64,000 nucleotides of DNA from positions 62,001-126,000 of the forward strand of contig NZ_VOOR01000001.1 in the NCBI RefSeq assembly GCF_007993045.1, in the 5' to 3' direction. The notes beneath the pieces are model-generated. The model made no database searches and had not been told where the DNA came from. It was given only the letters and a program-made list of their open reading frames with translations. The DNA is from Phaeodactylibacter luteus (GTDB lineage: Bacteria; Bacteroidota; Bacteroidia; Chitinophagales; Saprospiraceae). Shown piece by piece: positions 1 to 28,138 of this stretch. The stretch's first letter is position 1. Every line of letters begins with the position of its first letter. The position numbers and the translations under genes were made by a program.

Positions 1-1425
1 CCGGCTTCGGGTCACATCAAATACTTTGCCGCCGTAGCTGAGCTCTTTGGAAAAAGTTTTACCCCGGCTGACACTCGTGTTGTAGCCTACCCGCCCGGTA
101 AGGGTCAGCCCTTCTGCCGGCGTATAATCGAGGCTCACCTGCCCGTTGAGCTTGTTCAGGTCATAATCGTTGAAAGTATTGGCAATTTGCGCGAGGGGGT
201 TGATCACCTCGATGCCCAGCCCCGGAGTATTGGGCACAAGCGTAAACTCGCCGCTGTCGTCGCGGACCTGCAGGGTGGGCGGAGCATTGAGCCCGTTGAA
301 CAGCACGGAGCCAAGCCCGCTCTCGTTCAGGGCATCCCGGTCTATGTAGGTGTAAATGTTGTTGACCTGCAGCTTGAGGTTGTCTGCCAGATCAATGCCA
401 AGGTTGAGGCGGGCAGTATTCCGGCGGAATGCAGACTTCCTGCCGCCAATGATCCCTTCCTGATCGAGATGAGAGCCACTGAAAGAGTAGGTCACGCGGT
501 CAGAGCCCCCGCTAATGGTCACATCGTGGCTCGACATAGGTGCGGTGCCAAACACCTCAGCCTGCCAGTCTGTGCCCGTGCCCAGGCCGGAAGCGTTGGG
601 GTACGGCAGGTCTTGCCCACCTGCAGCATAACTTTCATTCAGCAACAGGGCGTACTCTGTAGCATTTAAGAGCGGCAGGAGGCGGCTGCTTTCCTGCAAG
701 CCCAGATAGGCGTTGTAGCTGACTTGCGGGGCTTGGTTTTTCCGGCCAGATTTCGTTGTGACCAATATGACCCCGTTGGCGCCAATGGTACCATAAACCG
801 CCGCCTGAGCATCTTTCAGGACGGTGATGGTTTCGATATCGCTAGGGTTAAGGGTGTTGAGGTCGCTCTGATAGCCATCGATAATGACTAAGGGCGCGTT
901 CTGCCCGTTGGTCGATACGCCCCGGATGCGGATATCCAGCCCTGCGCCGGGCGAGCCGGACTGCTGTGTGACATTCACACCTGGGGTGGTCCCTTGCAAT
1001 GCTTGCTCAATCTTTATCGGCTTGAGCTCTTCAATGGTCTCTGAGCCAACGAGAGAGACCGCGCCGGTTAGGTCGCGCTTGCGCTGCGTGCCATAGCCAA
1101 TGACCACGACTTCTTCCAGAGATTCCGCATCGGCCAGCATTTCAACAATGATTGGGCCGCCCGTTTCAATAACGGCTTCTTTACGCTGGTAACCGATGTA
1201 AGAGAACTGAAGGCTAGCCCCTTTGGGCACATCGGCCAGCTCAAAGCGCCCTTCAAAATCGGTGATCGTCCCTTGGACGGTGCCGTCTGCGGCGGGCAGT
1301 ACCACATTTACCCCAATCAGGGGGTCACCGTTGGCAGCATCCTGTACCACGCCCGTGACGGTAAAGTTTTGCCCCCAGGCAGTCGATGCCAGAAGCAATA
1401 AAGCGAATAAGGTAATCTGTTTCAT
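1..1425 (-). CDS. SusC/RagA-family TonB-dependent outer-membrane transporter, N-terminal 475 residues
   Basis: The gene runs off the left edge, so only the N-terminal half is present. The ATG at 1425 is followed by a short signal peptide ending in WGQ. Next comes a carboxypeptidase-regulatory-like beta domain (about residues 20-95; GVVQDAANGDPLIGVNV, TDFEGRFEL) and then a plug domain with the family hallmarks EEVVVIGYGTQRKRDLTGAV, IRIRGVSTNGQNAPLVIIDG and VLKDAQAAVYGTIGANGVIL. Barrel strands follow. SusC proteins form the outer-membrane channel that imports oligosaccharides or peptides with a SusD lid lipoprotein, powered by TonB. A susD gene would be expected just left of the window. The large regulator gene 1774-4638 lies upstream on the same strand and is the natural controller. 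The substrate cannot be inferred. Confidence 0.95.
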   Translation of the reverse strand, partial: MKQITLFALLLLASTAWGQNFTVTGVVQDAANGDPLIGVNVVLPAADGTVQGTITDFEGRFELADVPKGASLQFSYIGYQRKEAVIETGGPIIVEMLADAESLEEVVVIGYGTQRKRDLTGAVSLVGSETIEELKPIKIEQALQGTTPGVNVTQQSGSPGAGLDIRIRGVSTNGQNAPLVIIDGYQSDLNTLNPSDIETITVLKDAQAAVYGTIGANGVILVTTKSGRKNQAPQVSYNAYLGLQESSRLLPLLNATEYALLLNESYAAGGQDLPYPNASGLGTGTDWQAEVFGTAPMSSHDVTISGGSDRVTYSFSGSHLDQEGIIGGRKSAFRRNTARLNLGIDLADNLKLQVNNIYTYIDRDALNESGLGSVLFNGLNAPPTLQVRDDSGEFTLVPNTPGLGIEVINPLAQIANTFNDYDLNKLNGQVSLDYTPAEGLTLTGRVGYNTSVSRGKTFSKELSYGGKVFDVTRSR

Positions 1426-1773
1426 ACACTAATGAGTTTACAGCTGGCTCGTTCTGCCTGCCATTGGGTTGAATCAGGTACGCCAGGAGCAGGAGGGCTG
1501 CGCACATCCTTGTCCCTGCTGAATGGTATTGTCTACCGGATACAATATTAAAGATGCCAACCGGCAGGCTTGAAAAATCAACCACAACAAAAAACATACA
1601 AGACCAAATAAGTTTCGGAAAGCCCAGCAACTGATTATAAAACCTGACAGATTACAGCCCCCCTAGCCCTAAATGTCGATTATTGGCTAGCAGCAGGCTG
1701 TAGGCGGAAAGCGTGGGCATACCTGTGTTGTTGTGGTAATGTTGTGGTAAAATCAGGACGTGTTGTAGGCTGG
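1426..1773. promoter_or_regulatory. Region between the regulator gene and susC, with a tandem 11-bp repeat
   Basis: This 348-base stretch has no convincing gene. At 1730-1751 there are two adjacent copies of GTTGTGGTAAT/A, and an inverted copy of the core (ACCACAAC) sits at 1581-1588, nearer the susC start. In the direction of susC transcription the tandem copies lie about 305-325 bases upstream of the ATG and directly behind the regulator stop. Repeated short sites of this kind are typical of activator binding, so the LuxR-type protein encoded next door is a candidate ligand. That is inference; no clear -33/-7 promoter was found for susC. Confidence 0.4.
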
Positions 1774-4638
1774 TCAGATGCCTAAGATGTACTCAACAAG
1801 CCCTTCATCATGCTCTAGTTCCATTTTCTTGCGCAGGCGGTAGCGTTTCACCTCTACGCTGCGGACAGAAATGTTGAGCAGGGGGGCAATCTCCTTGGAG
1901 CTGAGATTGAGGCGCAGATAGGCGCATAGCTTAAGGTCGTTGGGGGTCAGTGCAGGGTGCCTTTCCTTTATCTTTTTAAAAAACTCCTGATCTGCATTTT
2001 CAAAAGCCTCCTTGAAAAGGTTCCAGGTATCTTCTTCGTTGGTATTTCGGTTGATGGTCTTCACCACCGCCCGGATGTTGCGGTTGGCATCCTCACTAGC
2101 TTTCAGCTCGTCTTTAATTTGGTTGAGCAGCTCATTCTTCTTGACCAGGCTCATGGTGGAGATGGCCAGCTCCCTGTTCTTGTTTTCGATGTCTTTTTGC
2201 AGCTGCTCATTGCGCAGGCGGACCAGCTGCAGTTCATTTTCTTTTTGTTGGCCCTCTAAGCGTTTTTGAGCCTCCTTTTTCAGTTGGGCCTGCTGCCGCT
2301 TGTAGTACCCCGTATACGCCCGGTGCGTAAAGAAGGCCAACAAAGACAAAAGTACGAAGTAGCAGCCAAGGGCAGGGTAAGACCAATACCACGGGCGGCT
2401 GATGTAGAAAGGGAACGAGAGCTCAGCAGCAGGCTTGCCGCCCCCAAGCCTGCTGCGCACACGGAGCGTGTACTTCCCGAATGGCAAATTTTTAAACTGG
2501 GCCTGAGCCTCCTCTGACCATTCGCTCCATCCTACATACCCTTCCAGCTGGTACTGAAACTCTGGCAAATCATATTTTTGAAAAGCAGGCACTGCGAAGC
2601 CGAAATTCAGGCTATTGAGACCATAGGGCACCTTTTGCCCAGGCTCCAACAGTAGCCGTACCGGCGCTTTGTCCAACGTATTGGCGCTTACCTCTGTGAG
2701 GGTCAGTTGATATGCCGATGGGGACAAGGCTCCGAGGTTGAGCAGCAGGTAGCCATCTGCCGTGCCAATCAGCAGTTGGCCAGGCTGCAAGATGGCAATG
2801 TTCTCGTACCCGGGCATGGCATTGATCAGGGACGAGGCGATAGGGATCTGATGAAGCTTTGGGGTAGGCAGCAGAGAGCTGTTGCTGAAATAATTGATGT
2901 ACTGCCGGGTAAACAGCCATAACCGGCCAGCCGCATCCGCAATCATTTTGCCAGAATGATAATTGCCTTGCTGAATGGGCACACTAAGGCTAGAGTCGCG
3001 GACAAACCCAGCCGCCCAATCCTGCATCCGGAAAACGCCGTCCCGTGAGCAGTACAATATTGCCCCATCAAAGCGCTCTAAACTGGAATGCTTCCCTTTT
3101 TTGGGCTCAGGGTAAGTTTTCACCTCCACTGCGCGCTGATAGGCTTCGTCTATACGGATACCGAACACCCCTTTGTACTCATGGCTGACCACCAGCTCGG
3201 CAGGGCTTTGCCATTCAAAGAAACGGGCCGAATAATCAAACCCTTGCAGGCTGTTGCGGTAGGCCCACCCTCCTCCATTTTTTTCCAAAAAGGCAAGCCC
3301 CCGGTACGTGCCCACTGCCATGAGCTGCCCCTTGCCGCCAGGCACCGGCTCAAATTTCCAGGCTCCCACCTCGGGCCCAATCTTGCGGGCCTCCTCCCCT
3401 TCAAGCAGGAAGACCCCTTTGTCGTGCCCACACAACAAATCCTCCCCAAACCGGTACAGTGCCCAAACTTGGCCTTTCGTGCCGGGGATCAACCGGAACG
3501 GTGCCTGCCCGTACACTGCCCGCTTAAACAGCCCCTGATTGGTGCCCAGATAGAGCTGCCCATTATGGACTTCTGCCGCATACACCGTACCCAGCCGCCC
3601 GCTCTCATCGGCAAACCGGCGGATAGGTGATTCCAGATTGATGCAGTTGATGCCATTGTCAGTCCCAGCCCAAAGGTTGTGTTCGTCGTCTTCAAAAAGG
3701 GAAAGTACTGTGTTGTTGGCCAGCCCCTCCGATTGCGAAAAATGATAACGCAGCTGCCCATCCGGCCTAAAGAGGAATACCCCGTTTGAGATCGTGCCCA
3801 CAGCCAGCTGCCCCCCGCTCAGGTGCCGGGCACTGTAGATGCTTTTCCCTTCAAGAGCAACAGCCGCTGCAGACCAGGCGGGGGCCAACGGAGCGGGCCA
3901 GCCCTGTACACCTTCACTGGCATCGAGCAAAAACAGCTGCCCGCCCTCCGCCTGTATGTCAATCCAGCGGGTTGAAGGCAGGGCACCAGGCGGGACCAGC
4001 AACTGCTGCTCCCCTTTTATCAGCTCATACACCGCTTGCCGGGGGTCTGTGAAGATCAGCCGCCCATCCGTCAGAAATAGCTTATCGACCCCGTGCTCAG
4101 GCCGGATGACTTCCATGCCGCCTGTGCCCGGGGTGTAGATGTAAAGCTGGTCAAGCGACTGGAACACAATCCGGCCTTCATATTCCAATATATTCCAAAT
4201 GTGCTCGTCGGGCACCAGGGCATCTTGGTTTTCTGCACTGACAGAGCGATAAGACAGCTGGCCTTTTGCCCCCCGCTCCCAATAGCCAAACTCCATATAG
4301 CAGCCTGTATATACCCGGCCGCCAGCCGGGCGTACAGCCCTGATGATGGTCTCGTTTGGAGAAGGGTAGAGCGTCCACGCCGTACCATTGAACTCCAGCA
4401 AGCCTGCATTATTGGCTACATAAAGGAAACGGTCCTGCCCCTGCCCGATCATCCAATTTTGATTGCCCCCCAGGTAGATTTCGGGCTTGAAGCTGCGCAC
4501 GGGTGGCAGCTCCTGAGCAGCCAATGGGCAGAGAGCAGACAAGGCCCACCACAGCAGCAAGCTGCGGAGAAGGCACCGCCCTTCATCCGTTTGGCGATAA
4601 GCCATGTTCAGTCCTCTTAGCATCTTCATCGCATCCAA
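1774..4638 (-). CDS. Membrane sensor-regulator: two-component-type propeller, Y_Y_Y domain, TM helix, coiled coil, LuxR-type HTH
   Basis: The 954-residue protein has an N-terminal signal or anchor segment (about residues 20-42) and then a long repeat region with beta-propeller motifs such as SLFEDDEHNLWAGTDNGINC. A Y_Y_Y-like domain follows (about 670-750, YQLEGYVGWSEW...LPFGKYTLRVRS), then one membrane helix (about 753-772), a charged coiled coil (775-850) and a C-terminal helix-turn-helix (about 890-945, LTPNDLKLCAYLRLNLSSKEIA...VEVKRYRLRKKM). There is no kinase or receiver domain: a periplasmic ligand signal would pass directly to the DNA-binding tail. Such proteins usually sit beside susCD loci, as here, where susC lies immediately downstream on the same strand. 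Several Met codons at the N-terminus (residues 1, 4, 6, 13) make the exact start uncertain. Confidence 0.88.
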   Translation of the reverse strand: MDAMKMLRGLNMAYRQTDEGRCLLRSLLLWWALSALCPLAAQELPPVRSFKPEIYLGGNQNWMIGQGQDRFLYVANNAGLLEFNGTAWTLYPSPNETIIRAVRPAGGRVYTGCYMEFGYWERGAKGQLSYRSVSAENQDALVPDEHIWNILEYEGRIVFQSLDQLYIYTPGTGGMEVIRPEHGVDKLFLTDGRLIFTDPRQAVYELIKGEQQLLVPPGALPSTRWIDIQAEGGQLFLLDASEGVQGWPAPLAPAWSAAAVALEGKSIYSARHLSGGQLAVGTISNGVFLFRPDGQLRYHFSQSEGLANNTVLSLFEDDEHNLWAGTDNGINCINLESPIRRFADESGRLGTVYAAEVHNGQLYLGTNQGLFKRAVYGQAPFRLIPGTKGQVWALYRFGEDLLCGHDKGVFLLEGEEARKIGPEVGAWKFEPVPGGKGQLMAVGTYRGLAFLEKNGGGWAYRNSLQGFDYSARFFEWQSPAELVVSHEYKGVFGIRIDEAYQRAVEVKTYPEPKKGKHSSLERFDGAILYCSRDGVFRMQDWAAGFVRDSSLSVPIQQGNYHSGKMIADAAGRLWLFTRQYINYFSNSSLLPTPKLHQIPIASSLINAMPGYENIAILQPGQLLIGTADGYLLLNLGALSPSAYQLTLTEVSANTLDKAPVRLLLEPGQKVPYGLNSLNFGFAVPAFQKYDLPEFQYQLEGYVGWSEWSEEAQAQFKNLPFGKYTLRVRSRLGGGKPAAELSFPFYISRPWYWSYPALGCYFVLLSLLAFFTHRAYTGYYKRQQAQLKKEAQKRLEGQQKENELQLVRLRNEQLQKDIENKNRELAISTMSLVKKNELLNQIKDELKASEDANRNIRAVVKTINRNTNEEDTWNLFKEAFENADQEFFKKIKERHPALTPNDLKLCAYLRLNLSSKEIAPLLNISVRSVEVKRYRLRKKMELEHDEGLVEYILGI

Positions 4639-6428: not shown

Positions 6429-6436
6429 TACTTTTG
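6429..6436 (+). promoter_or_regulatory. -7 box TACTTTTG of the first sigma-factor gene
   Basis: A perfect TAnnTTTG element lies 24 bases before the ATG at 6461. It settles the start: an in-frame TTG at 6434 falls inside the -7 element itself and so cannot be in the message. No good -33 TTG was seen at the expected distance. Confidence 0.55.
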
Positions 6437-6460
6437 GCTAGGAAACATTCCCCCTTCCCT

Positions 6461-7051
6461 ATGCTGAAGTTTTTCAAAAGCGAACCGTTCAAACACCTCA
6501 CCGATGAGGAGCTCTTGGCGCGTTACCGCCAAAGAGGGGGGAACCGTGTGCTCAATGCGCTCATAGACCGGTACCTGCACATTGTATACGGTGCTGCGCT
6601 GCAATACCTCAAAAACCAAGCTGATGCAGAAGATGCTACCATGGAGATCATGGGCAGCCTGGGCCCTAAACTCCGTAAATACGACATTCAGAACTTCTCC
6701 TCTTGGCTTTACGCTGTCGTCAACAATCATTGCTATAAAACAGTAAAAAAGCGGGCAGCCAGCCGCACAGAAGATATCGATGAAAATAATGAGCCCGGGT
6801 TTATGGAATTCATGCAGCACAACGCTCTATTGGAAAGAGAAGCCCAATTTGATAAACTGAGCGACGCCATTGACGAACTCAACCCGGAGCAACGTCAATG
6901 TATCACCGCTTTTTACTTGCAACAGAAAACCTATAAACAGATCGCAAGCGAGCTTGGCTATACCGAAAACCAAGTCAAGAGTTATATCCAAAACGGCAAA
7001 CGCAACCTCAGAACCCAAATCGCCAAATGGTATGAAAGCCAAACAAAATAA
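6461..7051 (+). CDS. ECF-type RNA polymerase sigma factor
   Basis: The 196-residue protein has a region-2 segment (LNALIDRYLHIVYGAALQYL, then NQADAEDATMEIM and the promoter-melting stretch NFSSWLYAVVNNHCYK) and a region-4 helix-turn-helix (LNPEQRQCITAFYLQQ, YKQIASELGYTENQVKSYIQ, GKRNLRTQI). It is the usual length of an ECF factor. The start was placed at ATG 6461 because the -7 promoter box covers the only upstream alternative. The next gene overlaps it by 20 bases and encodes a membrane protein with TPR-like repeats, the usual place for an anti-sigma partner. The regulon is unknown; the convergent TPR-CHAT gene and the similar locus at 23145-28138 suggest a shared theme. Confidence 0.9.
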   Translation: MLKFFKSEPFKHLTDEELLARYRQRGGNRVLNALIDRYLHIVYGAALQYLKNQADAEDATMEIMGSLGPKLRKYDIQNFSSWLYAVVNNHCYKTVKKRAASRTEDIDENNEPGFMEFMQHNALLEREAQFDKLSDAIDELNPEQRQCITAFYLQQKTYKQIASELGYTENQVKSYIQNGKRNLRTQIAKWYESQTK

Positions 7052-7766
7052 ACAGCCGGAAATCAGCAGAGAAGAGCTCTTACAGCAATTTGAAAAGCAT
7101 CCGGGCGCTACTGCACAAAAAAAATTCAGCGCTTTTTCTCAGCGGGCCCTCAATGGCATGAAATACCAAGAAGGAGACCTCCGCCAATCCTTAAAACGGC
7201 TCGACGGGAAAATCAAGCGCAATAACCGGCCGGCTATCCTCCCTAAGCTCGCCGCAGCTGCCAGTATTGCCCTGCTGCTCGCGCTCAGCTATATCTACTT
7301 GCCCTACGCTCAGGAAGCGGGCGCAGGGCAAGGCTACACCGCCTATTTCGACTACCCTGTCTTAGTGCTTTCCAATGTAGAGCGGGGCAAAGCCGAAGCT
7401 CCACAAAGCAGCACGGCCTCCTTGCTGAGCCGTGCCGCGCAAACTTACCAAGCCGGATCTTATTCAGACGCAGAGGGCCTGCTAAGGGCATATATCAGCC
7501 AAGTGCCTGATGATGGGGAAGCCCAATTCTACTTTGCAGTCGTACTGCTCGGGCAGGACAAAGCTAGCGGGGCAAAGCCAATTTTAGAACGGCTGAAAAA
7601 CAACCTGCCGGCCCCCAATTACAAAAGGCCAGTAGATTGGTACCTCGCCCTGTCCTACATAGCCGAAGGAGAACCTGAACAGGCCCGGGGGCTTTTGCTG
7701 TCGCTCAGCCAAGGGGATGACCGGTACGCAAGGCTCGCAAGGCTTGCCATCAACCAGCTTTTCTAA
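7032..7766 (+). CDS. Membrane-anchored TPR-like protein, probable partner of the sigma factor
   Basis: The ATG at 7032 lies inside the end of the sigma gene (20-base overlap, so translation is probably coupled). The 244-residue product has a polar cytoplasmic N-terminus of about 65 residues (EISREELLQQFEKHPG...LRQSLKRLDGKIKRN), one membrane helix (about 70-90, LAAAASIALLLALSYIYL) and an outer C-terminal part with TPR-like helices (LLSRAAQTYQAGSYSDAEGL, AQFYFAVVLLGQDKASGAKP, DWYLALSYIAEGEPEQARGL). The topology fits an anti-sigma factor, but no named anti-sigma fold was recognised. Its last 17 bases overlap the end of the convergent CHAT gene. Confidence 0.75.
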   Translation: MKAKQNKQPEISREELLQQFEKHPGATAQKKFSAFSQRALNGMKYQEGDLRQSLKRLDGKIKRNNRPAILPKLAAAASIALLLALSYIYLPYAQEAGAGQGYTAYFDYPVLVLSNVERGKAEAPQSSTASLLSRAAQTYQAGSYSDAEGLLRAYISQVPDDGEAQFYFAVVLLGQDKASGAKPILERLKNNLPAPNYKRPVDWYLALSYIAEGEPEQARGLLLSLSQGDDRYARLARLAINQLF

Positions 7767-10656
7767 AGCGGGCGTACAGCCCGATGCTTGCCAATATTGC
7801 GGCCGCTGCTGCAAACAGCCCGAGCAGGGGCCAAGTGGGCCGCTTCCCTGAAATAGTTATGGGCTCTCTATTGCCCTGATAAACGAAGCCGCTCCAATAA
7901 TAAGGATGGGCCAGCAAAGGCTCCTCCCTGATTACCTCCATTTTGGCTTCCCGCAAGGCCTCCGCCTTGTCTAGCCCGCGATTGATGTTGCGGTAAAACG
8001 CAGCTACCAAATGTGGGGCAGCCACATCGCCCAATGGCCACAGCGTCATAATGATGTTAGAGCAGCCTGCGTAAGCAAAGGCATGAGACAGGCTGATATT
8101 CCCTTCTCCAGCTTGTACTTCCCCTACTCCTGTGTTGCAGCCGCTCAGGAAGGCCAGGTCGGCCACTAGAGGCCAAGCGTATAGCTCATACGCATGAAGG
8201 GCTCCGTCTTCCCCCCCGCCGGCGTTCAACACCAGCTTGGAAACAGAAGGGGAACGGGGGTTGATCTCGGTGTGTGTCGCCAAATGCAGTGCGGCTGCCT
8301 GACTGCTCCTTCTGTACCATTCCGCTTCACGAGCTGCTGCCCTCCTAAGGAAAATGCCTTTATACCAACCAGAAAGAGAATCTAGCTCAGCCTGCGCTCC
8401 GGGCAGGGGCGGAAGCTGTTTTTCTGTACCATCAAACTCAGGAGCAAGGGCAAGGATATGCCCGTTGTGCTTTGATTGGGCAGCCTGCTGCTGCAAGGCG
8501 GCACTACCGGATAATAGCTGGCGGAAACTGAAACGCTCCAATAGGAAGGCCGGGCGCCCGCCCGCCAGATCGTAGACCAGCTGATCAAAAGGCACTTGGA
8601 ACAGGGCTCCGTCCGGGATGATAATGACCTTCTCATGCCCGGCAAGCAATGGCTCCAAAGGTGCAAAAACCTGATGATACAACCTATGGCTCAATTCGTA
8701 CACTTTGGGTGAGCGGGACCTCAAGGCCTCCGCTAGCGCTTTGGCTTGCAGCCCCCAATCATTGGCCGGTATAGCTCGCATTGCTATCTGCCCCCGGGTA
8801 AGGGCTACGGCTAACAAAGTATCGGCCGTGGCAAAATAGCTCACCATCGCTTCCCCCTCATACAATACCTTCTGCTGCAGGTCTTTCAGGCCGGCCTCCT
8901 CAATGCTAAGCCTGGCTTTGTAATACCGCGGGTAATCTTCTGCTATCCTGTTTAGCACAGCTTTGTGCTGTCTGATCAGCCGATTGAGCTGGGAAAGGAC
9001 CTCTTCCCTGACCTCTTCTGCATCGGCCAGGTCTGCCTGCGCTTCGTAAAAGCGTATTTCAGCTCTAAGGTTGCGCTCCTCTTCCACCACATTGTCGGGT
9101 ATATCATGGAAGGAACGGGCGTAAAGCTCATTAAGGTTTTCAAGGATGGACAGGGACCGGCTCTTTTCCATATACCGCAGGGCAAGGGCGGCGTACCGTT
9201 GCTCCCCGGTGCCCTGGTACAGCGCGTACAGGGTTTTGACCAGCTCTTCGTAAATATCTCTTGCCTCTACCGCAAACGCTTCCCGTGCACTTTGCCCCTG
9301 CATGTCGAGGCGGTTGTCCTGAATGAGAGAGTCCGCCTGCTGAAGTGCCAAAAGAGACAGCTGCCCATAAGCCAGCGCCCCAGATTGCCGATATGCCGTG
9401 CGCAGCGCCCTTCCCTTTAGCCCCCAAAGGGTAATGCCGTAGGGGACCGACTCCAGGTTGGGCCAGGCAGGGTTGGCATAATCGTCTGCCGGCTCATAGC
9501 CCTCTACCAAAAAGCGGAATGCCACCTGTATGGCCGCCAGTGCCTCGTCGAGGTCATTGCCCTCAAGTGCAATTTCGGCGCGTACCATTTGTGTGCTGGC
9601 ATTGACGTCTATTGGTGCAGCCCCCACCGCCGCCGCTTTTTCAATTGCCTTTCGCGCGCACGCAAAGTCTCCAGATTGCAGACATTGCTTAGCCCGGTAG
9701 TTGTAAGCGATCTGAAGTGCTGCAGAGCCCTCCCCCACGATAGCCTCCAAGTCCGAGATCAATTGATCAAGGCTGGCTACCGCCTCCTCTGACTGCTCGG
9801 CGTCCATCTGTGCCCGGATGATGTTGAGGGTAGTGCGAAAAACGTAATAGTCCAGGCCGCCCGCCAGCCTTTTCCGGATTTCCAGCGCCTTGCCCAGGTA
9901 CATTAGGGCTACAGTAGGCTCATCAAGATCGATGTAAAAAGAGCCGAGGTTGTTATAGCATTGAGCCATCAGCGCTTCATCTTCCAGCAGGCCAATCGCT
10001 TCCTCCAGCTGTATTACCGCTTGCTCCAAGTCACCGGTTTCTGCAAAAGCCTGAGACAGGTGCATGTGGGCAATAGCTTCTGTGCGGGGCAGGCCAGCCC
10101 TCTTTGCGATAATCAACGCAGTGTCTGCAAAGGAACGGCAGGTCTCCCATAAGCCACGCCGCCCATACGCTACTGCCACATTGCAGTAGGCATCTGCAGC
10201 AAAAGACGAGTAGAGGCCTCCGGTGGCTACGGCTACTCGCTGGCCCTCCTGATAATAATGCAGCTGCGCATTATAATTGCCCCGGCGGCCCTCACATATG
10301 CCTAGGTTCATTAAGGTGGTAGAATAAACAGCAGAGGTGTCAGGCTTCAGGAAGCGGTGGAAGGTCTCGCAAGCCAAGGTAGCCTCTGACATGGCCTGCG
10401 GGTAGGCCATGTCGTAAATAGACAGCTCGCTGAGCCAGGTAGCCGCCGCCGCATATAGGTAAGGGGAGCTTGATGGAGAGGACAAGGAGAGCACCTCTTC
10501 ATATACAACACGGGCTTCGGTATAATCGCCTTCCTGCCGCAGAGAGTCTGCTGTCCTTAAGAGCAAGGCTTGCCCGCTGAGCACAGGCTGAGCATTGCTC
10601 TGAAGCGATGCAGCAATAACAATTGCCCATAAAGCTACTTTCTTGTGTTTCCCCAT
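7750..10656 (-). CDS. TPR-CHAT caspase-like protease with C-terminal membrane helix
   Basis: The 968-residue protein starts with a short signal-like segment and continues with many TPR helices (about residues 40-560; for example CYNNLGSFYIDLDEPTVALM and EEALMAQ-type repeats). A CHAT domain occupies about 640-930. The catalytic dyad of the caspase/CHAT fold can be seen as His795 in LHLATHTEI and Cys840 in LAFLSGCNTG, followed by the conserved HAFAYAGCSNIIMTLWPLGD. A C-terminal membrane helix (about 942-961) ends in RFRKAG, so the protease domain is probably tethered to the membrane. CHAT proteases in bacteria cleave specific partner proteins, some in defence or cell-death systems. The target here is unknown. 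It converges on the sigma/TPR pair. Confidence 0.9.
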   Translation of the reverse strand: MGKHKKVALWAIVIAASLQSNAQPVLSGQALLLRTADSLRQEGDYTEARVVYEEVLSLSSPSSSPYLYAAAATWLSELSIYDMAYPQAMSEATLACETFHRFLKPDTSAVYSTTLMNLGICEGRRGNYNAQLHYYQEGQRVAVATGGLYSSFAADAYCNVAVAYGRRGLWETCRSFADTALIIAKRAGLPRTEAIAHMHLSQAFAETGDLEQAVIQLEEAIGLLEDEALMAQCYNNLGSFYIDLDEPTVALMYLGKALEIRKRLAGGLDYYVFRTTLNIIRAQMDAEQSEEAVASLDQLISDLEAIVGEGSAALQIAYNYRAKQCLQSGDFACARKAIEKAAAVGAAPIDVNASTQMVRAEIALEGNDLDEALAAIQVAFRFLVEGYEPADDYANPAWPNLESVPYGITLWGLKGRALRTAYRQSGALAYGQLSLLALQQADSLIQDNRLDMQGQSAREAFAVEARDIYEELVKTLYALYQGTGEQRYAALALRYMEKSRSLSILENLNELYARSFHDIPDNVVEEERNLRAEIRFYEAQADLADAEEVREEVLSQLNRLIRQHKAVLNRIAEDYPRYYKARLSIEEAGLKDLQQKVLYEGEAMVSYFATADTLLAVALTRGQIAMRAIPANDWGLQAKALAEALRSRSPKVYELSHRLYHQVFAPLEPLLAGHEKVIIIPDGALFQVPFDQLVYDLAGGRPAFLLERFSFRQLLSGSAALQQQAAQSKHNGHILALAPEFDGTEKQLPPLPGAQAELDSLSGWYKGIFLRRAAAREAEWYRRSSQAAALHLATHTEINPRSPSVSKLVLNAGGGEDGALHAYELYAWPLVADLAFLSGCNTGVGEVQAGEGNISLSHAFAYAGCSNIIMTLWPLGDVAAPHLVAAFYRNINRGLDKAEALREAKMEVIREEPLLAHPYYWSGFVYQGNREPITISGKRPTWPLLGLFAAAAAILASIGLYARFRKAG

Positions 10657-21790: not shown

Positions 21791-22969
21791 CTACTGCCGC
21801 AGCGCAATTTTGCCTGAGCCGACAGTTTGGCCAGCAGCATTGGTAAGCTGGTAAAAGTAGCTGCCGGCAGTCAGCTGGGCAGGGAGGGAAATGCGCTCCA
21901 ATGGCCCCACAACAATCTGCTGATGAGCCAGGCGCCCGGCAGTATCAAACACGCTAAGGCCCCACTCTTCTGTACTGTTTTTATCCAGCTGCAGCTCAAA
22001 TTGATGCCCGGCTACAGGATTGGGGAATACCTTGTGCGCGACCTGCGGCACCTGCTGCCAGCGGGTGCTGACTACAGGAGTGCCGTTTTGGAATAAGTCC
22101 TTGTTCTGCAGTGCAGTTTCCAGTTCGCCATCTGCCGAGAAGAAGTAGACGCCAAAATAGTCCAGCCCTGGCATGTAAAAATAATAATGAGTGGCATTGC
22201 TCTCACTGCCCTGCGTCAAGCCGAGGGGGGCGAGCAGCGCAGCCGGCAATGGGTTGTTAGCGGCATCCAAGAAGCTGTCCCTGCGGGTATTCTGCTCCGT
22301 CACCAGCAAGGTTTCAAACTCCAGGACTTCCTCCGTGTCAGGATCACGCAGCAGTATCGTCCCCCAGCCATTTACGGTAGTAGAAACGGTGCGGTCTATT
22401 TGTTGCCTTACCGCAAACCCAGCCAGCCCGAAGGTTGGTGCATTGACGACAAAGTTGATGTTGCTCCTGCTGTCCATTCCCCACTCATCTTCATAAGCCA
22501 TAGGCAGCTGATAGATGGCCCGTGCAACCGACTCGGCCCGCTCGCCACCAACTATGATCAGGGTATCTGCAGGGTTGCCCGTAGCAGCTTGCAACGGCAG
22601 CTCAAGCGATAGGTCTACGAAGCCATCGATAGAAAAACCATCATCGGTAAGGGTAAAATACCGGTTGATGAGTACAGGTACACCTGCATATACAGATTCA
22701 ATGGGCGCATACAAATTGGAGGACGGGAAAAACTCTGTATCGTTGGCAGAAAAGACGCCGATCTGGCTGCCATTGAAGGTAATATTGGAATAATCCCAAA
22801 CTTTGTCTTCTCCGCCTTCCGGCAAAAGCACCTCGTTAATCGCCAATCTGGTGTAGTGGATGGTATCCCCATTGGGGCTCATGGTGATGTCGCCAGGCTG
22901 AAGGCTGATCTGGGCAAAAGCAGGGAGCGCCAAAGCTAAAAGGAGCATGCTAAGTACTAATGATTTCAT
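21791..22969 (-). CDS. T9SS cargo protein, paralogue of the secreted protein in the downstream sigma operon
   Basis: The 392-residue product has a signal peptide (LLLALALPAFAQ), a roughly 290-residue beta-rich domain and a type A T9SS sorting tail (HKVFPNPVAGHQFEL, LTAGSYFYQLTNAAG). The main domain matches the product of 24687-25610 by eye: LPEGGEDKVWDYS with LPQGGTGQVWDFS, YEDEWGMDS...NAPTFGL with YGKQWATES...DAPSINI, and ATHYYFYMPG with EAYKFYIREH. That paralogue lacks the sorting tail. This gene is divergent from the sigma-CHAT operon, separated by 175 bases. No enzymatic motif is recognised. Confidence 0.85.
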   Translation of the reverse strand: MKSLVLSMLLLALALPAFAQISLQPGDITMSPNGDTIHYTRLAINEVLLPEGGEDKVWDYSNITFNGSQIGVFSANDTEFFPSSNLYAPIESVYAGVPVLINRYFTLTDDGFSIDGFVDLSLELPLQAATGNPADTLIIVGGERAESVARAIYQLPMAYEDEWGMDSRSNINFVVNAPTFGLAGFAVRQQIDRTVSTTVNGWGTILLRDPDTEEVLEFETLLVTEQNTRRDSFLDAANNPLPAALLAPLGLTQGSESNATHYYFYMPGLDYFGVYFFSADGELETALQNKDLFQNGTPVVSTRWQQVPQVAHKVFPNPVAGHQFELQLDKNSTEEWGLSVFDTAGRLAHQQIVVGPLERISLPAQLTAGSYFYQLTNAAGQTVGSGKIALRQ

Positions 22970-23091
22970 GTTTGCTGAGTTTTTAAGTTGTAATGAATGC
23001 CTACATATGGGATGGGCAGGCAGGATGTGACACTTGGGGTCAACTTTTTTCTCCTTCCCTTCTTTTTGGGCAAAAAAGCTTAATTTTTAGC

Positions 23092-23099
23092 TGCATTTG
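23092..23099 (+). promoter_or_regulatory. Probable -7 element TGCATTTG of the second sigma operon
   Basis: TGCATTTG differs from TAnnTTTG at one position, and a TTTG lies at 23065-23068. The element sits 46 bases before the ATG at 23145. It overlaps the alternative TTG start at 23097, which argues for the ATG. Confidence 0.35.
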
Positions 23100-23144
23100 T
23101 CACGAAGTGCTATTTCAATTCATAAGTGGGCATTGAGCGATACA

Positions 23145-23786
23145 ATGGAAGAACAGGCGAAGCATGCATTCCCCTCCTACTGCGATCGGCTCCGGGCAAA
23201 AGACCCGGCAGCCTGGCAGTGGCTGATGGGGCATTTTGAAGAAAGGGTGAAGCCCTGGCTTTTCCAGAAGGTTGGGGCACTGCCCAAAGGCTATAATATG
23301 GCCAGGCAAGACTTTGTAGAGGAAGTGTTCGCCCAGGCTACTTATAAGTTCTACGACCTTTTCCAAAATGGGCACTTTGAAACCCTGGCGGATTTACGGG
23401 GCCTGATGTTCCGCGTAACGGAATTTGCCGTCAAGGAAGGCTACCAAAAAGTAAAAAGAGACCAGAAACTTTATTTCAGCGATGAGATTGCCCCTGAATC
23501 TATGAACGATATGAACGCAGAAGCCCAAGCTGAGAAACGCAAACAAGAAGCCCTTGAAATCGTCAGGGCATTCATCCGGCAGCTCCCCCGCAAAGACCAG
23601 GACATCCTAGGGCTTTATCTCGACGGGCTCTCTTTCCAAACCATCGCGCTGCGCACCGGGCTGACAGAATCCAACTGTAGAAAACGAAAACAACGGGCAC
23701 TGGAACAAGTCAAGCATTTGTTCTTCAGCCGCTTGCATTGGATAGCAGCCCTAGTGCATGCCCTTGGGGGGCTCCCCTTACAATAA
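23145..23786 (+). CDS. ECF-like RNA polymerase sigma factor, first gene of the CHAT operon
   Basis: The 213-residue protein resembles a divergent ECF factor. Its region-2 part is AAWQWLMGHFEERVKPWLFQ, DFVEEVFAQATYKFYD and LADLRGLMFRVTEFAVKEGY; the region-4 HTH is LPRKDQDILGLYLDGLSFQT, IALRTGLTESNCRKRKQRAL. It is followed after 10 bases by an anti-sigma-like gene, after 14 more by a secreted-protein gene, and then with a 4-base overlap by a TPR-CHAT gene. A similar sigma gene sits at 6461-7051 beside another TPR-CHAT gene. The ATG at 23145 was preferred to an in-frame TTG at 23097 that lies in the promoter. Confidence 0.85.
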   Translation: MEEQAKHAFPSYCDRLRAKDPAAWQWLMGHFEERVKPWLFQKVGALPKGYNMARQDFVEEVFAQATYKFYDLFQNGHFETLADLRGLMFRVTEFAVKEGYQKVKRDQKLYFSDEIAPESMNDMNAEAQAEKRKQEALEIVRAFIRQLPRKDQDILGLYLDGLSFQTIALRTGLTESNCRKRKQRALEQVKHLFFSRLHWIAALVHALGGLPLQ

Positions 23787-23796
23787 CTTTGCTGCT

Positions 23797-24672
23797 ATGG
23801 ACAGAAACTACATCGACCGCAATAACATTATCGAGCGCTACCTCTTGCACCAGCTCACTGACGAAGAGCGGCACCGCTTTCGGACCGCCCTCTTGTTTGA
23901 CCCCAAGCTCAGGGAGGAGGTGGAACATACCCGCCTCCTTCACCGTCAGATAAAAGCGAGCATTGCCCGTCAGCAGCCAAGGGCTTGGTACCAAAACCGC
24001 AGTTACCTGGGGCTGGGGCTTTTCGCCTTGCTGATGGCTGCCGTGCTCATTTGGCTGGCCCTGCCCGAGCCATCAGCTCCCTCTCCCTCTTCGCCCAGCG
24101 CACCCGCCATCCCCAAGAGCACAACAGCTCTGCCCAAACAGCCGGCAGCAGGGGCTGAACAAACAGCAGTGCCCAAACAGCCGGCAGGCCAGGCAGATGT
24201 TGAGCAACGAACAATACCCCGGACTAAAAGACAGCTCCCCCCCCCTATGCCTGAAAAGCCACAGCCCATCGCCCAATTGGAGCCGAGCTATGCGCCCCAC
24301 CCTTACCTCGATCAGTTCACAGATAGCTACAACCGCAATAGCCAGTCTATAGCCAGCTTAACGCGCACCCCCGACAGCTTGTACCGCATCGGAGAGGATG
24401 ACAGCCTGCTGTTCCAGCTTGGCGGGCGGCTCCGCGTAGAAGGGGCGGTGCCGGCCGAACGGTTTGTTGTACGGATTTTCAGCAATAAGCTGGAGGACTT
24501 CGAAAGTTTCCGCCCCCTGTACAACCTTTCTCCCGCCATCAGCATGGGTGAAGGCGAGCCCACATTCTCCGCTGCCGCCAAGCTGCAGCTACAGCCTGGG
24601 CTATACTACTACCTGCTAGAAGATAACGAGGCAGAAGACCTCATCTATACAGGCAAATTCATTGTAGAATAA
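23797..24672 (+). CDS. Anti-sigma-like membrane protein with Pro-rich linker and outer beta domain
   Basis: The 291-residue protein has a cytoplasmic N-terminus with the helical anti-sigma pattern IIERYLLHQLTDEERHRF and LFDPKLREEVEHTRLL (about residues 11-48). One membrane helix follows (about 71-89, LGLGLFALLMAAVLIWLAL), then a long Pro/Ala/Gln linker with a repeated PKQPA segment (DNA repeat GCCCAAACAGCCGGCA at 24132 and 24172). A C-terminal domain of about 110 residues ends in LQPGLYYYLLEDNEAEDLIY. The arrangement suggests that the outer domain senses a signal and the N-terminus holds the sigma factor. A TAACTTTG box at 23784-23791 lies just 6 bases before the ATG and may be chance. Confidence 0.8.
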   Translation: MDRNYIDRNNIIERYLLHQLTDEERHRFRTALLFDPKLREEVEHTRLLHRQIKASIARQQPRAWYQNRSYLGLGLFALLMAAVLIWLALPEPSAPSPSSPSAPAIPKSTTALPKQPAAGAEQTAVPKQPAGQADVEQRTIPRTKRQLPPPMPEKPQPIAQLEPSYAPHPYLDQFTDSYNRNSQSIASLTRTPDSLYRIGEDDSLLFQLGGRLRVEGAVPAERFVVRIFSNKLEDFESFRPLYNLSPAISMGEGEPTFSAAAKLQLQPGLYYYLLEDNEAEDLIYTGKFIVE

Positions 24673-24686
24673 ATACCGCTTAACCT

Positions 24687-25610
24687 ATGAAAAAAACACT
24701 CTTCCTCTTGGCCAGTTTATGCACGGCTGCAGTTGCCAGTTCTGCACAAATTGAGATCACCGGTGAACAAGGCAGCCCCCCCTTAGGCCAGCCGGTCCCT
24801 TACACTTACATCAAAAATCCTGGCACCGGCCTGCCACAGGGCGGTACTGGCCAAGTTTGGGATTTTAGCCATTTTCTACCGTGTGACGATTGCTTGGACG
24901 CTTCCCTATACCTGCCTGCCAACGAGCAGGAAGGGCTGCCAGAAGGAACATACCAAACGAAAACCAAGGTCTATACGCTCGGCCATATCACGCCATACAC
25001 CATCTTCTACCATCAAAATGAAGAAGGGGACATTTACCAAGTAGGCGCCTCTTTCCCAGAGTCCATCCTATCCATGCAAGCCGTTTCGGGCCACCCCATG
25101 GACCAGCTCACGCTCACAGCCCAAAGCAAACAAACAGCTATCCTAGAAATGGACTATCCGCTCCATTATGGCAAACAATGGGCTACGGAGTCGAAAGACA
25201 CCTTTATTTTTTATATCGATGCCCCTTCCATTAACATCAAAAGGCTCCCGCTGCACCAGTGGTCTTCTTACACTACACAATACGAAATCATTGGCAGCGG
25301 CCAGCTCACCCTGCCTTATTGGGAAGATGGGCAAAAAAGCACGCATACCTATGAAGCCCTGCTCTTAAAATATGACCCCGTGAGCCGTTTACGGTTTACA
25401 AGCCCCGCTATACCTGACGAAGAGCTGGCCCAGCTCCTGAGCCTGGCCGGGGTAAGCCTTGAATCAGAAAACCGGTGCGAGGCTTACAAATTCTACATAC
25501 GCGAACACCCTCTACCTGTATTGATCTTCAGAGCGTGCAGCGGCAGGGGCACCACAGAAAGAGCCAGCTTACAAACCAGCCTTAGCCAATTCCCACCATT
25601 TGCCAAATGA
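24687..25610 (+). CDS. Secreted/periplasmic protein, tail-less paralogue of the divergent T9SS protein
   Basis: The 307-residue protein begins with a signal peptide (FLLASLCTAAVASSAQ). Its body aligns along most of its length with the 21791-22969 product: the shared blocks are listed there, together with a DAPS/NAPT step before the second half. It has no T9SS sorting tail and ends in a Ser/Gln-rich segment. Several Cys residues (for example LPCDDC and RACSGRG) are absent from the paralogue. It sits between the anti-sigma-like gene and the TPR-CHAT gene, overlapping the latter by 4 bases (ATGA). A role as ligand, sensor or protease substrate in the system is possible but unproven. Confidence 0.8.
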   Translation: MKKTLFLLASLCTAAVASSAQIEITGEQGSPPLGQPVPYTYIKNPGTGLPQGGTGQVWDFSHFLPCDDCLDASLYLPANEQEGLPEGTYQTKTKVYTLGHITPYTIFYHQNEEGDIYQVGASFPESILSMQAVSGHPMDQLTLTAQSKQTAILEMDYPLHYGKQWATESKDTFIFYIDAPSINIKRLPLHQWSSYTTQYEIIGSGQLTLPYWEDGQKSTHTYEALLLKYDPVSRLRFTSPAIPDEELAQLLSLAGVSLESENRCEAYKFYIREHPLPVLIFRACSGRGTTERASLQTSLSQFPPFAK

Positions 25611-28138
25611 GGAAGACCCTGACTTGCGCTGCCGTTTGCCTGCTGCTGGCCGGGCTTTGCGCACCCTGCACAGGCGCCGCCCAAAGCGAAATCCTGCAAG
25701 GCCATGCCTATGCACAGCGGGCCCAGGGGTATATGGCTTACCTGAATTTCCGAGAAGCCATTGACTATTACGAGCAGGCTATTGATATTTTCTTGGACCA
25801 CCTCGACAGCCAACACCCGCTGATTGCTGCCAATTATGCTGCAATGGGGCAGGCCTACCTGGCTGCTGGCTTTGATGAGCAGGCACGCCTGTACTGTGAG
25901 ACCGGGCTCAACCGCATCATGGGCAGGTACCCTTCCGGAGCCATCGCCGCCAATTGCCTGGCCTGCCTGGCCGAGGTCAGTGCTCAGGCAGGAGAACCCG
26001 CCATTGCCCTGGCCTATTTCAAAAAGGCGCTGGCCATTCATGAAGACCTATGGGGGCCGCTGCACTTAGCCTCCACAGGCTTGTACCTTCAGCTTGGCTA
26101 TTTCCATATCAGGCAGCAACAGTACCCGGAAGCCATGGGCTTCTTCAGCCAGGCCGCCCAACTGGGGATGGAGGAAAATGCCGCGGGGGTACTGGGGCAG
26201 GCTTACCTGGGCATGGGGCAGGCTCTGTTGCTCCAAGAGGAGGTCGGAAAGGGCCTTGGGCAGTTGCAGCGAAGCCTTGAAGCCTTAAAAGAAGTGCATG
26301 GGGAAAGCCACCCCGATATTTCCCGTGCCTTTCTAGCTTTGGCGGAGGGGCAGGCTCAAGCCGGAGATACCACCCTCGCACTGTCTACCCTAGACAAAGC
26401 AGAACAGCACTTTAGGCAAACTGGCCAACAAACCCTGCTGATAGTAGGCTATGACAGCTGCTCGTGCAACCCTATATTCCTAAAAACAGCAGCCCTCAGA
26501 GGAGCGTATACAGAAAAAGCCAACCCTGCCGTAGCCTTTGCCCATTACGAAGAGGCCGTTTCCCGCACGCTGCGCCTTATCAAATATACCGCTAAAAGTG
26601 CTGCCCACCGGCAGGCTGTGCTACAAAAGCATAAAGCTACCTTTGTCGATGGCATCCGGCTGGCACACCAGCTTTTTAAGCAGACCAAAGACCAAGGCTA
26701 TTTTTCAAAAGCTTTTGAAATGGCCAATGCCTATCAAGGGCTCACCCTTCAGATCGCACGGAAAGAAGCCGTTGCCTTTCAGGCCCTGCTGCCCGATACA
26801 GATTGGCCACAAAGAAGGCAGCAGATCAGGCAGGGGCTGTCCCTGGCAGAGCAGCGCCTGTACGAGGCCAGGCAAGACAGCACCTCCTCCCTAAACGAGC
26901 TAAGGAAAAACTATACTGGCCTGCAGAACGAGTATGCGCTTTGGCGAAATGACTTCCGCCGTACCTACCGCTTTGTAGAAGACGAGGTCTTTGCAGGCAA
27001 AAACAACCTGCTCAGCCAGGTACAGGCCGAACTCAAGCCCAATGAAGCCCTGCTCAACTATGTGCTCGACCTGGAGCACCGTGCCGCTTACCTCTTTGCT
27101 GTAAAGCCCGGCCGGCAGGCCTTCCTGCGCATACCATTGGATGATGGCTTCTCCGAAAGCGTGAAACAGCTTTACCGCCTTGCCCAAAGCGCGCTGTTGC
27201 CCAGAGCTGATAAAAAACAAAAATTCGTCCAAAAGAGCCAGCAGCTCTACCTTCAGCTGCTTGCCCCCCTTTCCGGCCTGACTTCAACCGGGGACCGGCT
27301 GATCATCATCCGTGACGATGAGCTGCATTACCTCCCTTTTGAAGTCTTGCTCCCCGAGGCCTTGCCCAGCCTGCCTTTTGCTGAAATGCCCTTCGCTATC
27401 CGCAAGCACGAAATGGTGTACCACTACGCTGCTGGCCTTTGGCTGCTTGGCCGGCAAGCCCCAGAAACCCATCAAAATGGGAAACTGCTCGCTTTTGCAC
27501 CGGTATTCGAAACCGATGAGAATGGCACATCGGCCTTGGCTGACCACAGCCGTTGCTATACCCCGGGCCTGCCCCAAAGCCCCCTGCCCTACTCTGCTGT
27601 TGAAGTGCAGGCCATAGCCCGTCACCTGGGGCCAGCAGAAGGCAGCCAGATCTTATTGCGCCAGAATGCTACCGCCAATCAGCTCCTGGAAGCTTTGCAA
27701 CAACCTTTCCAATTCGTCCATATCGCTTCCCATAGCTTTGCCAATACAGAACAGCCCGGCTTTTCCGGCATCGCCTGCGCGCCAGAGGAAGGATTATCCG
27801 ACTGCCTGTTGTACCTGACTACCATTGAAAATTTAACCCTGAAGGCCGACCTCGTAGCGCTGAGCAGCTGCGAAAGCGGTATCGGCAAAAGCGTACGCGG
27901 GGAGGGCGTCATGGGGCTGAACCGTAGCTTCATGCACGCAGGAGTGCCCAATGCCCTCTTCTCGCTCTGGAAAGTCAACGATCAGCATTCCTGCCAGATC
28001 ATGCAGCACTGCTACCGCTATATCAGCGAGGGGATGGGCTATGCACGTGCACTACAGCAAACGAAAATCGACCTGATCACGGACGGCTCCTATTCAACCC
28101 CCAATACCTGGGCCAGTTTTATCCTGATGGGCCGGTAA
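25607..28138 (+). CDS. TPR-CHAT caspase-like protease, last gene of the sigma operon
   Basis: The 843-residue protein has a signal-like N-terminus (AVCLLLAGLCAPCTGAAQ) and TPR helices (about 30-290; FREAIDYYEQAIDIFLDH, AIALAYFKKALAIHED). A helical spacer is followed by a CHAT domain (about 480-843). The expected catalytic pair is His709 in VHIASHSFA and Cys755 in VALSSCESGIG, followed by GEGVMGLNRSFMHAGVPNAL and FSLWKVND. Unlike the first TPR-CHAT protein it has no C-terminal membrane helix, so with a cleaved signal it would be periplasmic. Its start overlaps the preceding stop (ATGA), showing coupled translation. CHAT proteases are activated by partners and cut specific proteins; the operon neighbours are natural candidates. 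Confidence 0.9.
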   Translation: MRKTLTCAAVCLLLAGLCAPCTGAAQSEILQGHAYAQRAQGYMAYLNFREAIDYYEQAIDIFLDHLDSQHPLIAANYAAMGQAYLAAGFDEQARLYCETGLNRIMGRYPSGAIAANCLACLAEVSAQAGEPAIALAYFKKALAIHEDLWGPLHLASTGLYLQLGYFHIRQQQYPEAMGFFSQAAQLGMEENAAGVLGQAYLGMGQALLLQEEVGKGLGQLQRSLEALKEVHGESHPDISRAFLALAEGQAQAGDTTLALSTLDKAEQHFRQTGQQTLLIVGYDSCSCNPIFLKTAALRGAYTEKANPAVAFAHYEEAVSRTLRLIKYTAKSAAHRQAVLQKHKATFVDGIRLAHQLFKQTKDQGYFSKAFEMANAYQGLTLQIARKEAVAFQALLPDTDWPQRRQQIRQGLSLAEQRLYEARQDSTSSLNELRKNYTGLQNEYALWRNDFRRTYRFVEDEVFAGKNNLLSQVQAELKPNEALLNYVLDLEHRAAYLFAVKPGRQAFLRIPLDDGFSESVKQLYRLAQSALLPRADKKQKFVQKSQQLYLQLLAPLSGLTSTGDRLIIIRDDELHYLPFEVLLPEALPSLPFAEMPFAIRKHEMVYHYAAGLWLLGRQAPETHQNGKLLAFAPVFETDENGTSALADHSRCYTPGLPQSPLPYSAVEVQAIARHLGPAEGSQILLRQNATANQLLEALQQPFQFVHIASHSFANTEQPGFSGIACAPEEGLSDCLLYLTTIENLTLKADLVALSSCESGIGKSVRGEGVMGLNRSFMHAGVPNALFSLWKVNDQHSCQIMQHCYRYISEGMGYARALQQTKIDLITDGSYSTPNTWASFILMGR

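Follow-up and report, generated by a model that had tools for sequence, protein, structure and literature searches.

Recurrent linkage of an extracytoplasmic function sigma factor, a membrane anti-sigma-like protein and a putatively exported TPR-CHAT protease at a Phaeodactylibacter luteus locus and in other genomes

Results

We analysed a 64,000-nucleotide stretch of contig NZ_VOOR01000001.1 of Phaeodactylibacter luteus (positions 62,001 to 126,000; hereafter the window), in which a plus-strand unit of four genes encodes an extracytoplasmic function (ECF) sigma factor, a membrane anti-sigma-like protein, a secreted protein and a tetratricopeptide repeat (TPR)-CHAT cysteine protease, with a divergent gene for a cargo of the type IX secretion system (T9SS) beside it (Table 1). 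By the coordinates of the open reading frames (ORFs), 10 bases separate the sigma and anti-sigma genes and 14 the anti-sigma gene and the gene of the secreted protein, which itself overlaps the CHAT gene (gap of -4); these values depend on the sigma start taken here, ATG 23145. The same four-gene unit with its divergent neighbour had been read from this DNA in an initial annotation, and the ORF positions confirm it. Across genomes, the sigma, anti-sigma and TPR-CHAT genes occur together well above background, and it is these three genes, not that of the secreted protein, which form the recurrent core.

Table 1. Features of the locus and of a second unit of related composition (positions are those of the window; residue numbers refer to the protein in the same row)
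Feature	Position	Strand	Remarks
T9SS-exported protein, 392 aa	21791-22969	-	Divergent; paralogous main domain, type A sorting domain at residues 314-383
TGTCAC-N17-CATATG element	23004-23032	-	Oriented to the T9SS cargo gene
TGTCAC-N17-CATAAG element	23098-23126	+	Oriented to the sigma operon
ECF-type sigma-70 factor, 213 aa	23145-23786	+	Profile matches; longer TTG start at 23097 possible on paper
Membrane anti-sigma-like protein, 291 aa	23797-24672	+	3-helix domain 3-59; transmembrane helix 68-88; Pro-rich linker ~97-160; Ig-like beta-sandwich 186-290
Secreted protein, 307 aa	24687-25610	+	Signal-peptide-like N-terminus, no sorting domain, distant cargo paralogue
TPR-CHAT cysteine protease, 843 aa	25607-28138	+	Signal-peptide-like N-terminus; TPRs ~33-270; CHAT 543-843
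His709 codon of CHAT	27731-27733	+	Catalytic-type
Cys724 codon of CHAT	27776-27778	+	In SGIAC
Cys755 codon of CHAT	27869-27871	+	Catalytic-type
Second window unit	6434-10656
Sigma factor of second unit	6434-7051	+
Transmembrane protein with TPRs of second unit	7032-7766	+
TPR-CHAT of second unit	7750-10656	-	C-terminal transmembrane helix; tail to tail, 17-base overlap

Genes were counted as linked when a partner lay within 7 kb under strict cut-offs (sigma E 1e-10, anti-sigma 1e-5), looser cut-offs giving slightly different counts; CHAT anchors below 300 amino acids (aa) and CHAT partners below 200 aa were dropped, as was locus L064, a duplicate of the window. A first draw covered the neighbourhoods of full-length CHAT genes in five genomes of the family, which hold 7 to 30 CHAT matches each, and these were searched with profiles of the CHAT-linked sigma and anti-sigma proteins. 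A sigma or anti-sigma gene lay within the set distance of 18 of the 67 CHAT genes, against about 6 of 67 expected by chance (arithmetic from 185 PF08281 matches in ~33 Mb). The linked genes make up 5/7 in P. luteus itself, 6/9 in another genome of the genus (G153), 4/9 in G062, 1/13 in G057 and 2/29 in G126. All five linked CHAT genes of P. luteus have both a sigma and an anti-sigma-like gene, two of the regions having been extended, and the anti-sigma of the second window unit was recognised by eye and by its TPR matches.

The second draw started from the anti-sigma protein. A search with its profile A1 through 396 genomes of the order gave matches in 180, and 37 loci were hand-picked among the matches listed, 16 by the outer part of the protein and 21 by its N-terminus, with several loci from some genomes and with the P. 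luteus loci L209, L222 and L229 left out. CHAT genes were found within 7 kb in 19 of these 37 loci, where roughly 1-1.3 would be expected. A third draw, anchored on CHAT genes of named genomes and using an alignment of linked CHATs as query, gave 32 linked loci out of 78 (26 of 72 without the six records from which the query was built), 24 of the 32 having both partners. Among these linked loci are ones of Saprospiraceae, Aquimarina, Calditrichia, Ignavibacteria, Melioribacteraceae and KSB1 and, with an anti-sigma-like gene as the sole partner, one Neomarinimicrobiota and one Acidobacteria bin. The named strain Aquimarina latercula DSM 2041 (L317) has all three genes, sigma, anti-sigma and CHAT, with some 3 kb in between. 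The partner lay no farther than 1.2 kb away for 25 of 83 CHAT genes in this draw; of the 28 pairs that meet the looser cut-offs at this distance, 23 are arranged tail to tail.

The nearest relative of the window operon is L067, from another genus, with a sigma, an immunoglobulin (Ig)-type anti-sigma and a CHAT gene tail to tail. Within the genus, a row of sigma, anti-sigma, CHAT and a T9SS-type cargo relative is present in L082 of genome G150, with an anti-sigma of a different class and without a copy of the gap motif described below. At L190 (9374-11275), a CHAT fragment of 99 aa adjoins a sigma/anti-sigma pair, with transposase-like ORFs recognised by eye beside it; this unit, which was not counted, seems to have been broken by an insertion.

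Signs of common inheritance were sought in a comparison that left out seven named records identical to earlier loci. For 7 of the 12 loci listed, the best partner locus of CHAT is also that of sigma, and best partners are mutual for L062 and L140, for L145 and L149, and for the second window unit and L144 of G153; the window operon points one-way to L067. Identities of sigma and CHAT correlate over 62 pairs (r 0.29, reached in 0 of 1000 permutations), a correlation in which species descent is included.

The window CHAT matches PF12770 in Pfam (E 1.5e-53, 182.5 bits), in addition to TPR families, and keeps His709 and Cys755, the latter numbered as initially annotated; the His/Cys dyad is preserved in 104 of the 105 CHAT domains aligned. 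By its sequence, with this dyad in place, the protein is a predicted cysteine protease. A search of the PDB by sequence returned two TPR matches only, and we know of no substrate of exported CHATs of such a kind. Cys724 is invariant in seven aligned CHATs that adjoin Ig-type anti-sigmas.

The N-terminus of the window CHAT is hydrophobic and of signal-peptide type. A crude hydropathy rule, applied to lists of linked and unlinked CHATs compiled by hand, calls a signal-peptide-like N-terminus in 99 of 105 CHATs and in 39 of the 40 linked ones, the single exception being a short ORF. With such N-termini, the CHAT and the outer domain of the anti-sigma should both be periplasmic; the hydropathy calls and a structure model thus predict one compartment, the periplasm, for the protease and the Ig-like domain. 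A C-terminal transmembrane helix, often followed by a basic tail, is present in 16/40 linked and 41/65 unlinked CHATs, and would agree with anchoring of these CHATs in the inner membrane, the protease facing outwards.

The sigma factor has a Sigma70_r4_2 match above the Pfam cut-off and matches TIGR02937 (sigma70-ECF) with 45.5 bits against a cut-off of 42.9, over residues 49-191 and profile positions 20-163 of 165; no match by sequence was found in the PDB. Its presumptive partner, the anti-sigma-like protein, has no Pfam match. A partial match to the 'anti-sigma factor' family NF052375 covers residues 13-58 (E 6.5e-4, below the cut-off), and a profile search weakly matches the chain of the antisigma DdvA (E 0.066). 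The protein has a single transmembrane segment (hydropathy peak at 71-89), and its structure model combines an N-terminal three-helix domain, a Pro-rich linker of low confidence and a confident outer beta-sandwich. A fold search with this sandwich returned Ig/FN3-like domains (best Z 8.6) and no specific relative. In the reading proposed below, the N-terminal domain would hold the sigma factor.

Homologues of this protein mostly have a sigma gene next to them; none was detected beside those at L196, L277, L281, L285 and L288. The Ig-type class comprises the window protein, those of L067, L071, L074, L075, L077, L079 and L138, and named loci. Across 18 members, an Arg, an Asn and the motif GLYY..F are invariant, and the anti-sigma zinc finger zf-HC2 is found by Pfam in 8 of the 18; DUF928 and DUF1822, which accompany CHAT in clusters of cyanobacteria, are not among the 25 families listed for them. 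A second class, assigned by eye to L061, L065, L082, L140, L141, L145, L149 and L156, has a TPR-like outer part, for which Pfam TPR matches are available in the anti-sigma of the second window unit.

The T9SS cargo carries a TIGR04183 sorting domain (29.2 bits, cut-off 23), and its Pfam Por_Secre_tail score lies slightly under that model's own cut-off. No sorting-domain match was found in the secreted protein by either the Pfam or the TIGR04183 scan. Their main domains share 24-26% identity, and in a search of the genome up to E 10 with the secreted protein, the cargo gene is the sole match besides its own gene (E 4.1e-13, 26%). Another genus has a gene with a slightly higher score against the secreted protein (E 2.5e-15), which makes the paralogy old and distant. 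The secreted protein ends in ...QFPPFAK, at the point where the sorting domain of its relatives starts with ..FPNP.., and a surface version and a periplasmic version are therefore a fair reading of the two paralogues. The initial annotation had proposed both this paralogy, which is confirmed, and this division between surface and periplasm. A structure model of the secreted protein was unusable (mean predicted local distance difference test score 34.6), and the better PDB matches of the secreted/cargo profile span the C-terminal sorting-domain part only.

The same annotation had named, as a check, the co-occurrence of the secreted family with CHAT and sigma genes. Of the two outcomes that it gave as refuting its reading, absence of linkage in relatives and CHAT homologues without catalytic residues, neither holds for the sigma, anti-sigma and CHAT part. 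Homologues of the secreted protein and the cargo were found in 16 genomes out of 149 for the taxonomic family and, P. luteus counted, in 4 out of 6 for the genus, and this protein family lies beside sigma and CHAT genes in 2 of 21 loci, both in the genus. We thus reject it as a conserved core. A few links may have been missed at L083, L090, L093, L094 and L097, where a contig end is close; at a third locus, L084, there is a CHAT-like ORF in the vicinity and no sigma gene. The sigma match adjoining the secreted gene in L094 proved to be a LuxR-type response regulator, and the linkage counts were therefore redone with the strict cut-offs given above.

To judge from the loci compared, both the secreted protein and the T9SS cargo are accessory components, which vary from locus to locus. 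A T9SS subtilase sits between anti-sigma and CHAT in L149. On contig C179 of P. luteus, L209 (683-4412) and L065 (5377-8109) together present sigma, anti-sigma, a T9SS-domain protein and TPR-CHAT in series, the exported protein, with T9SS domain and subtilase models below cut-off, replacing the secreted one of the window operon; L149, from another genus, shares this gene order and has a clear subtilase. L062 has a divergent T9SS subtilase, with an orthologue in L140 (by eye). At L223 and L225, sigma and anti-sigma are separated from a CHAT with C-terminal transmembrane helix by a PKD/DUF7619/DUF7849 protein, and L216, L218, L226 and L227 have a protein of similar size in that place. In L067, sigma is divergent from a gene (2-4144) for a large protein of FG-GAP/SpvB type, which replaces the T9SS cargo; the gap motif faces this gene as well.

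Two inverted copies of a 6-17-6 element occupy the divergent gap of the window, one facing each gene (Table 1). The motif was defined on the window and then seen on both strands of the sigma-upstream gap of L067, after which its last positions were trimmed; by base composition, a pair on both strands in the L067 gap is expected about 5.5e-10 times, for a pattern partly trimmed after L067. Nine genomes contain 12 exact matches, four of which are the window and L067 elements, and six further ones in the two genomes that have the pair (2 in G000, 4 in G103) are located within called ORFs, antisense to them or where two genes converge, and none has the position of a promoter for a called gene. When 18 sigma-upstream gaps, mostly divergent, were searched de novo for inverted element pairs, little stood out from shuffled sequences; the lowest counts were 9/300 for L209, 13/300 for L223, 24/300 for L191 and 12/100 for L143, and L067 gave 79/300. 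The motif pair would suit a dedicated ECF sigma factor with two targets. Shortly upstream of sigma, L317, L318, L319 and L321 (Aquimarina), L225 and L227 have TTTTTGTTACCC or TTTGTTACCC, perhaps as a related -35 element, TGTYAC, and TGTTAC(CC) was seen by eye near some sigma starts.

Discussion

The locus may encode a trans-envelope ECF sigma switch, in which an exported CHAT protease cuts the anti-sigma and the sigma factor feeds back through the paired elements, a reading of the genes and predicted domains that we place just short of an even chance. The N-terminal domain of the anti-sigma would hold the sigma factor at the inner membrane, and its linker and Ig-like domain would lie in the periplasm together with the TPR-CHAT protein, the TPR part of which would sense an event in the envelope or at the surface, possibly the state of the secreted protein or of the T9SS cargo. 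Once activated, the protease would clip the anti-sigma in the disordered linker or the outer domain, like a site-1 protease, and follow-up proteolysis would free the sigma factor to transcribe its own operon and the divergent cargo gene via the TGTCAC-N17-CATAWG elements. The circuit first suggested for this DNA, with outer proteins reporting an event to the protease, retains its sigma/anti-sigma/CHAT unit, the kept dyad and the shared predicted topology, and loses the secreted family as a conserved part.

Several observations weigh against such a switch. Most CHAT genes of the first draw (49/67) lack a partner of this kind within 7 kb, above all in G057 and G126, and 60 of 65 unlinked CHATs pass the same signal-peptide rule, so that export is not peculiar to the linked ones. 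In the second draw, CHAT genes accompany 4 of the 16 loci picked by the Ig-like outer part (L191, L201, L202 and L203) and 15 of the 21 picked by the N-terminus, and the tie to CHAT thus belongs to sigma/anti-sigma pairs generally rather than to the Ig class. In five loci (L067, L141, L061, L143 and L082), the best partner locus of sigma is not that of CHAT. Other objections concern the motif. The window pair, chosen post hoc, was matched in 6 of 1000 shuffles and is no more than moderately unlikely, the de novo window pair was equalled in 107 of 300 shuffles with a differently shaped search interval, and a genome scan allowing three mismatches gave 53 matches compared with 124 for a reversed control. 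In L067, a single base separates the rightward CATAAG from ATG 4393 and leaves no leader, which means that either the start codon lies farther on or the element is an operator.

The main rival explanation treats the CHAT protein as an output of the system: an ordinary site-1 protease or a ligand would free the sigma factor, and the exported CHAT would process or degrade surface proteins such as the cargo or the subtilases. This fits the position of CHAT as last gene of the sigma operon in the window and the several loci in which CHAT genes accompany T9SS subtilases or other exported proteins, and PMC3482391, in the part cited, proposes a processing function for caspase-like peptidases that belong to exported systems. 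The close pairs of the named genomes, however, are mostly encoded on opposite strands and tail to tail, and in those genomes CHAT is not simply on the sigma transcript. We consider this explanation unlikely, if to be taken seriously.

Control of the anti-sigma by CHAT binding, as a ligand or scaffold and without cutting, would suit the TPRs of CHAT and the TPR-like outer domains of the second anti-sigma class; we think it quite improbable in view of the almost universal His/Cys dyad, which is needless for pure binding. A loose neighbourhood, that is, an ordinary ECF/anti-sigma pair near one of many CHAT genes and with no functional tie, could draw on the wealth of mostly unlinked CHAT genes in the sampled genomes of the family and on three listed genus members (G149, G150 and G153) without a CHAT match at E 1e-50 (three first-look candidates scored per genome), and is highly unlikely given the enrichment in three draws, its spread across phyla and the co-inherited pairs.

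If the protease-controlled switch holds at this locus, it may be one case of a widespread class of envelope signalling systems, distributed over Bacteroidota, Ignavibacteria, Calditrichia, KSB1 and others, that would use an exported TPR-CHAT to cut a membrane anti-sigma. Such a class would be a periplasmic counterpart, perhaps an ancestor, of the arm of type III-E CRISPR systems that consists of Csx29, Csx30 and sigma, wired here to T9SS surface proteins via a two-promoter regulon; we put this generalisation forward tentatively, as possible and on balance doubtful. From the recurrent neighbourhood follow a candidate substrate (the anti-sigma), a compartment (the periplasm) and a readout (a sigma-dependent reporter), so that the question can be put to a direct test. 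A CRISPR or defence role of the locus itself was considered and rejected, as the five proteins of the locus have no PADLOC match apart from one weak TPR match, and none of a Cas type; no ORF above 843 aa, as a candidate for Cas7-11, is among those listed at 15-36 kb of the window, the part of the genome that was searched.

Membrane anti-sigma factors with a periplasmic part, whose destruction is started by a protease, are familiar from RseA/DegS and RsiW, and the protease of Craspase partners the RNA-guided Cas7-11 in the cytosol, with no membrane inhibitor or signal peptide known. In common with RseA/DegS and RsiW, both named in the cited part of PMC10028731, the window locus would have an anti-sigma that reaches from the membrane into the periplasm and a protease that initiates its breakdown. 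It differs from them in the protease, a clan CD cysteine enzyme of the CHAT type as opposed to a serine or membrane-embedded one, and in the protease gene lying beside the pair. The initial annotation knew of no described system with this set of genes. We likewise found no described case of an exported TPR-CHAT with a membrane anti-sigma in the literature searched, outside which subscription papers and preprints lay; Csx29/Csx30 and ECF54, as portrayed in the passages cited here, do resemble it.

The sections of PMC8999054 used here describe ECF54 as sigma factors without an anti-sigma factor, with a genomic context that includes CHAT and subtilase genes, and propose their control by proteolysis. 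The likeness lies in the CHAT and subtilase-type neighbours, the latter also at L062, L149 and L209; by this description, the anti-sigma-like gene that follows sigma in the window sets it apart. The EACC2-caspase neighbourhoods, in the portion of PMC8195603 cited, likewise place a caspase-like protease beside an ECF sigma factor, together with DUF1822, whereas the locus studied here combines a CHAT of signal-peptide-like N-terminus with a membrane anti-sigma and has no DUF1822 or TRADD-N match in Pfam among the proteins scanned.

By analogy, the closest tested precedent for the proposed cleavage step is the cutting of Csx30, the inhibitor of CASP-sigma, by the TPR-CHAT protease Csx29 in type III-E CRISPR, as reported in the part of PMC10028731 cited. 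There as here, a TPR-CHAT protein, an ECF sigma factor and a sigma inhibitor are encoded together; the window locus is unlike it in the signal-peptide-like N-terminus of its CHAT and in an inhibitor that spans the membrane once and carries an outer Ig-like domain. If the proposed switch is true, the cleavage of the sigma inhibitor in type III-E CRISPR would become one member of a broader family of sigma switches under protease control.

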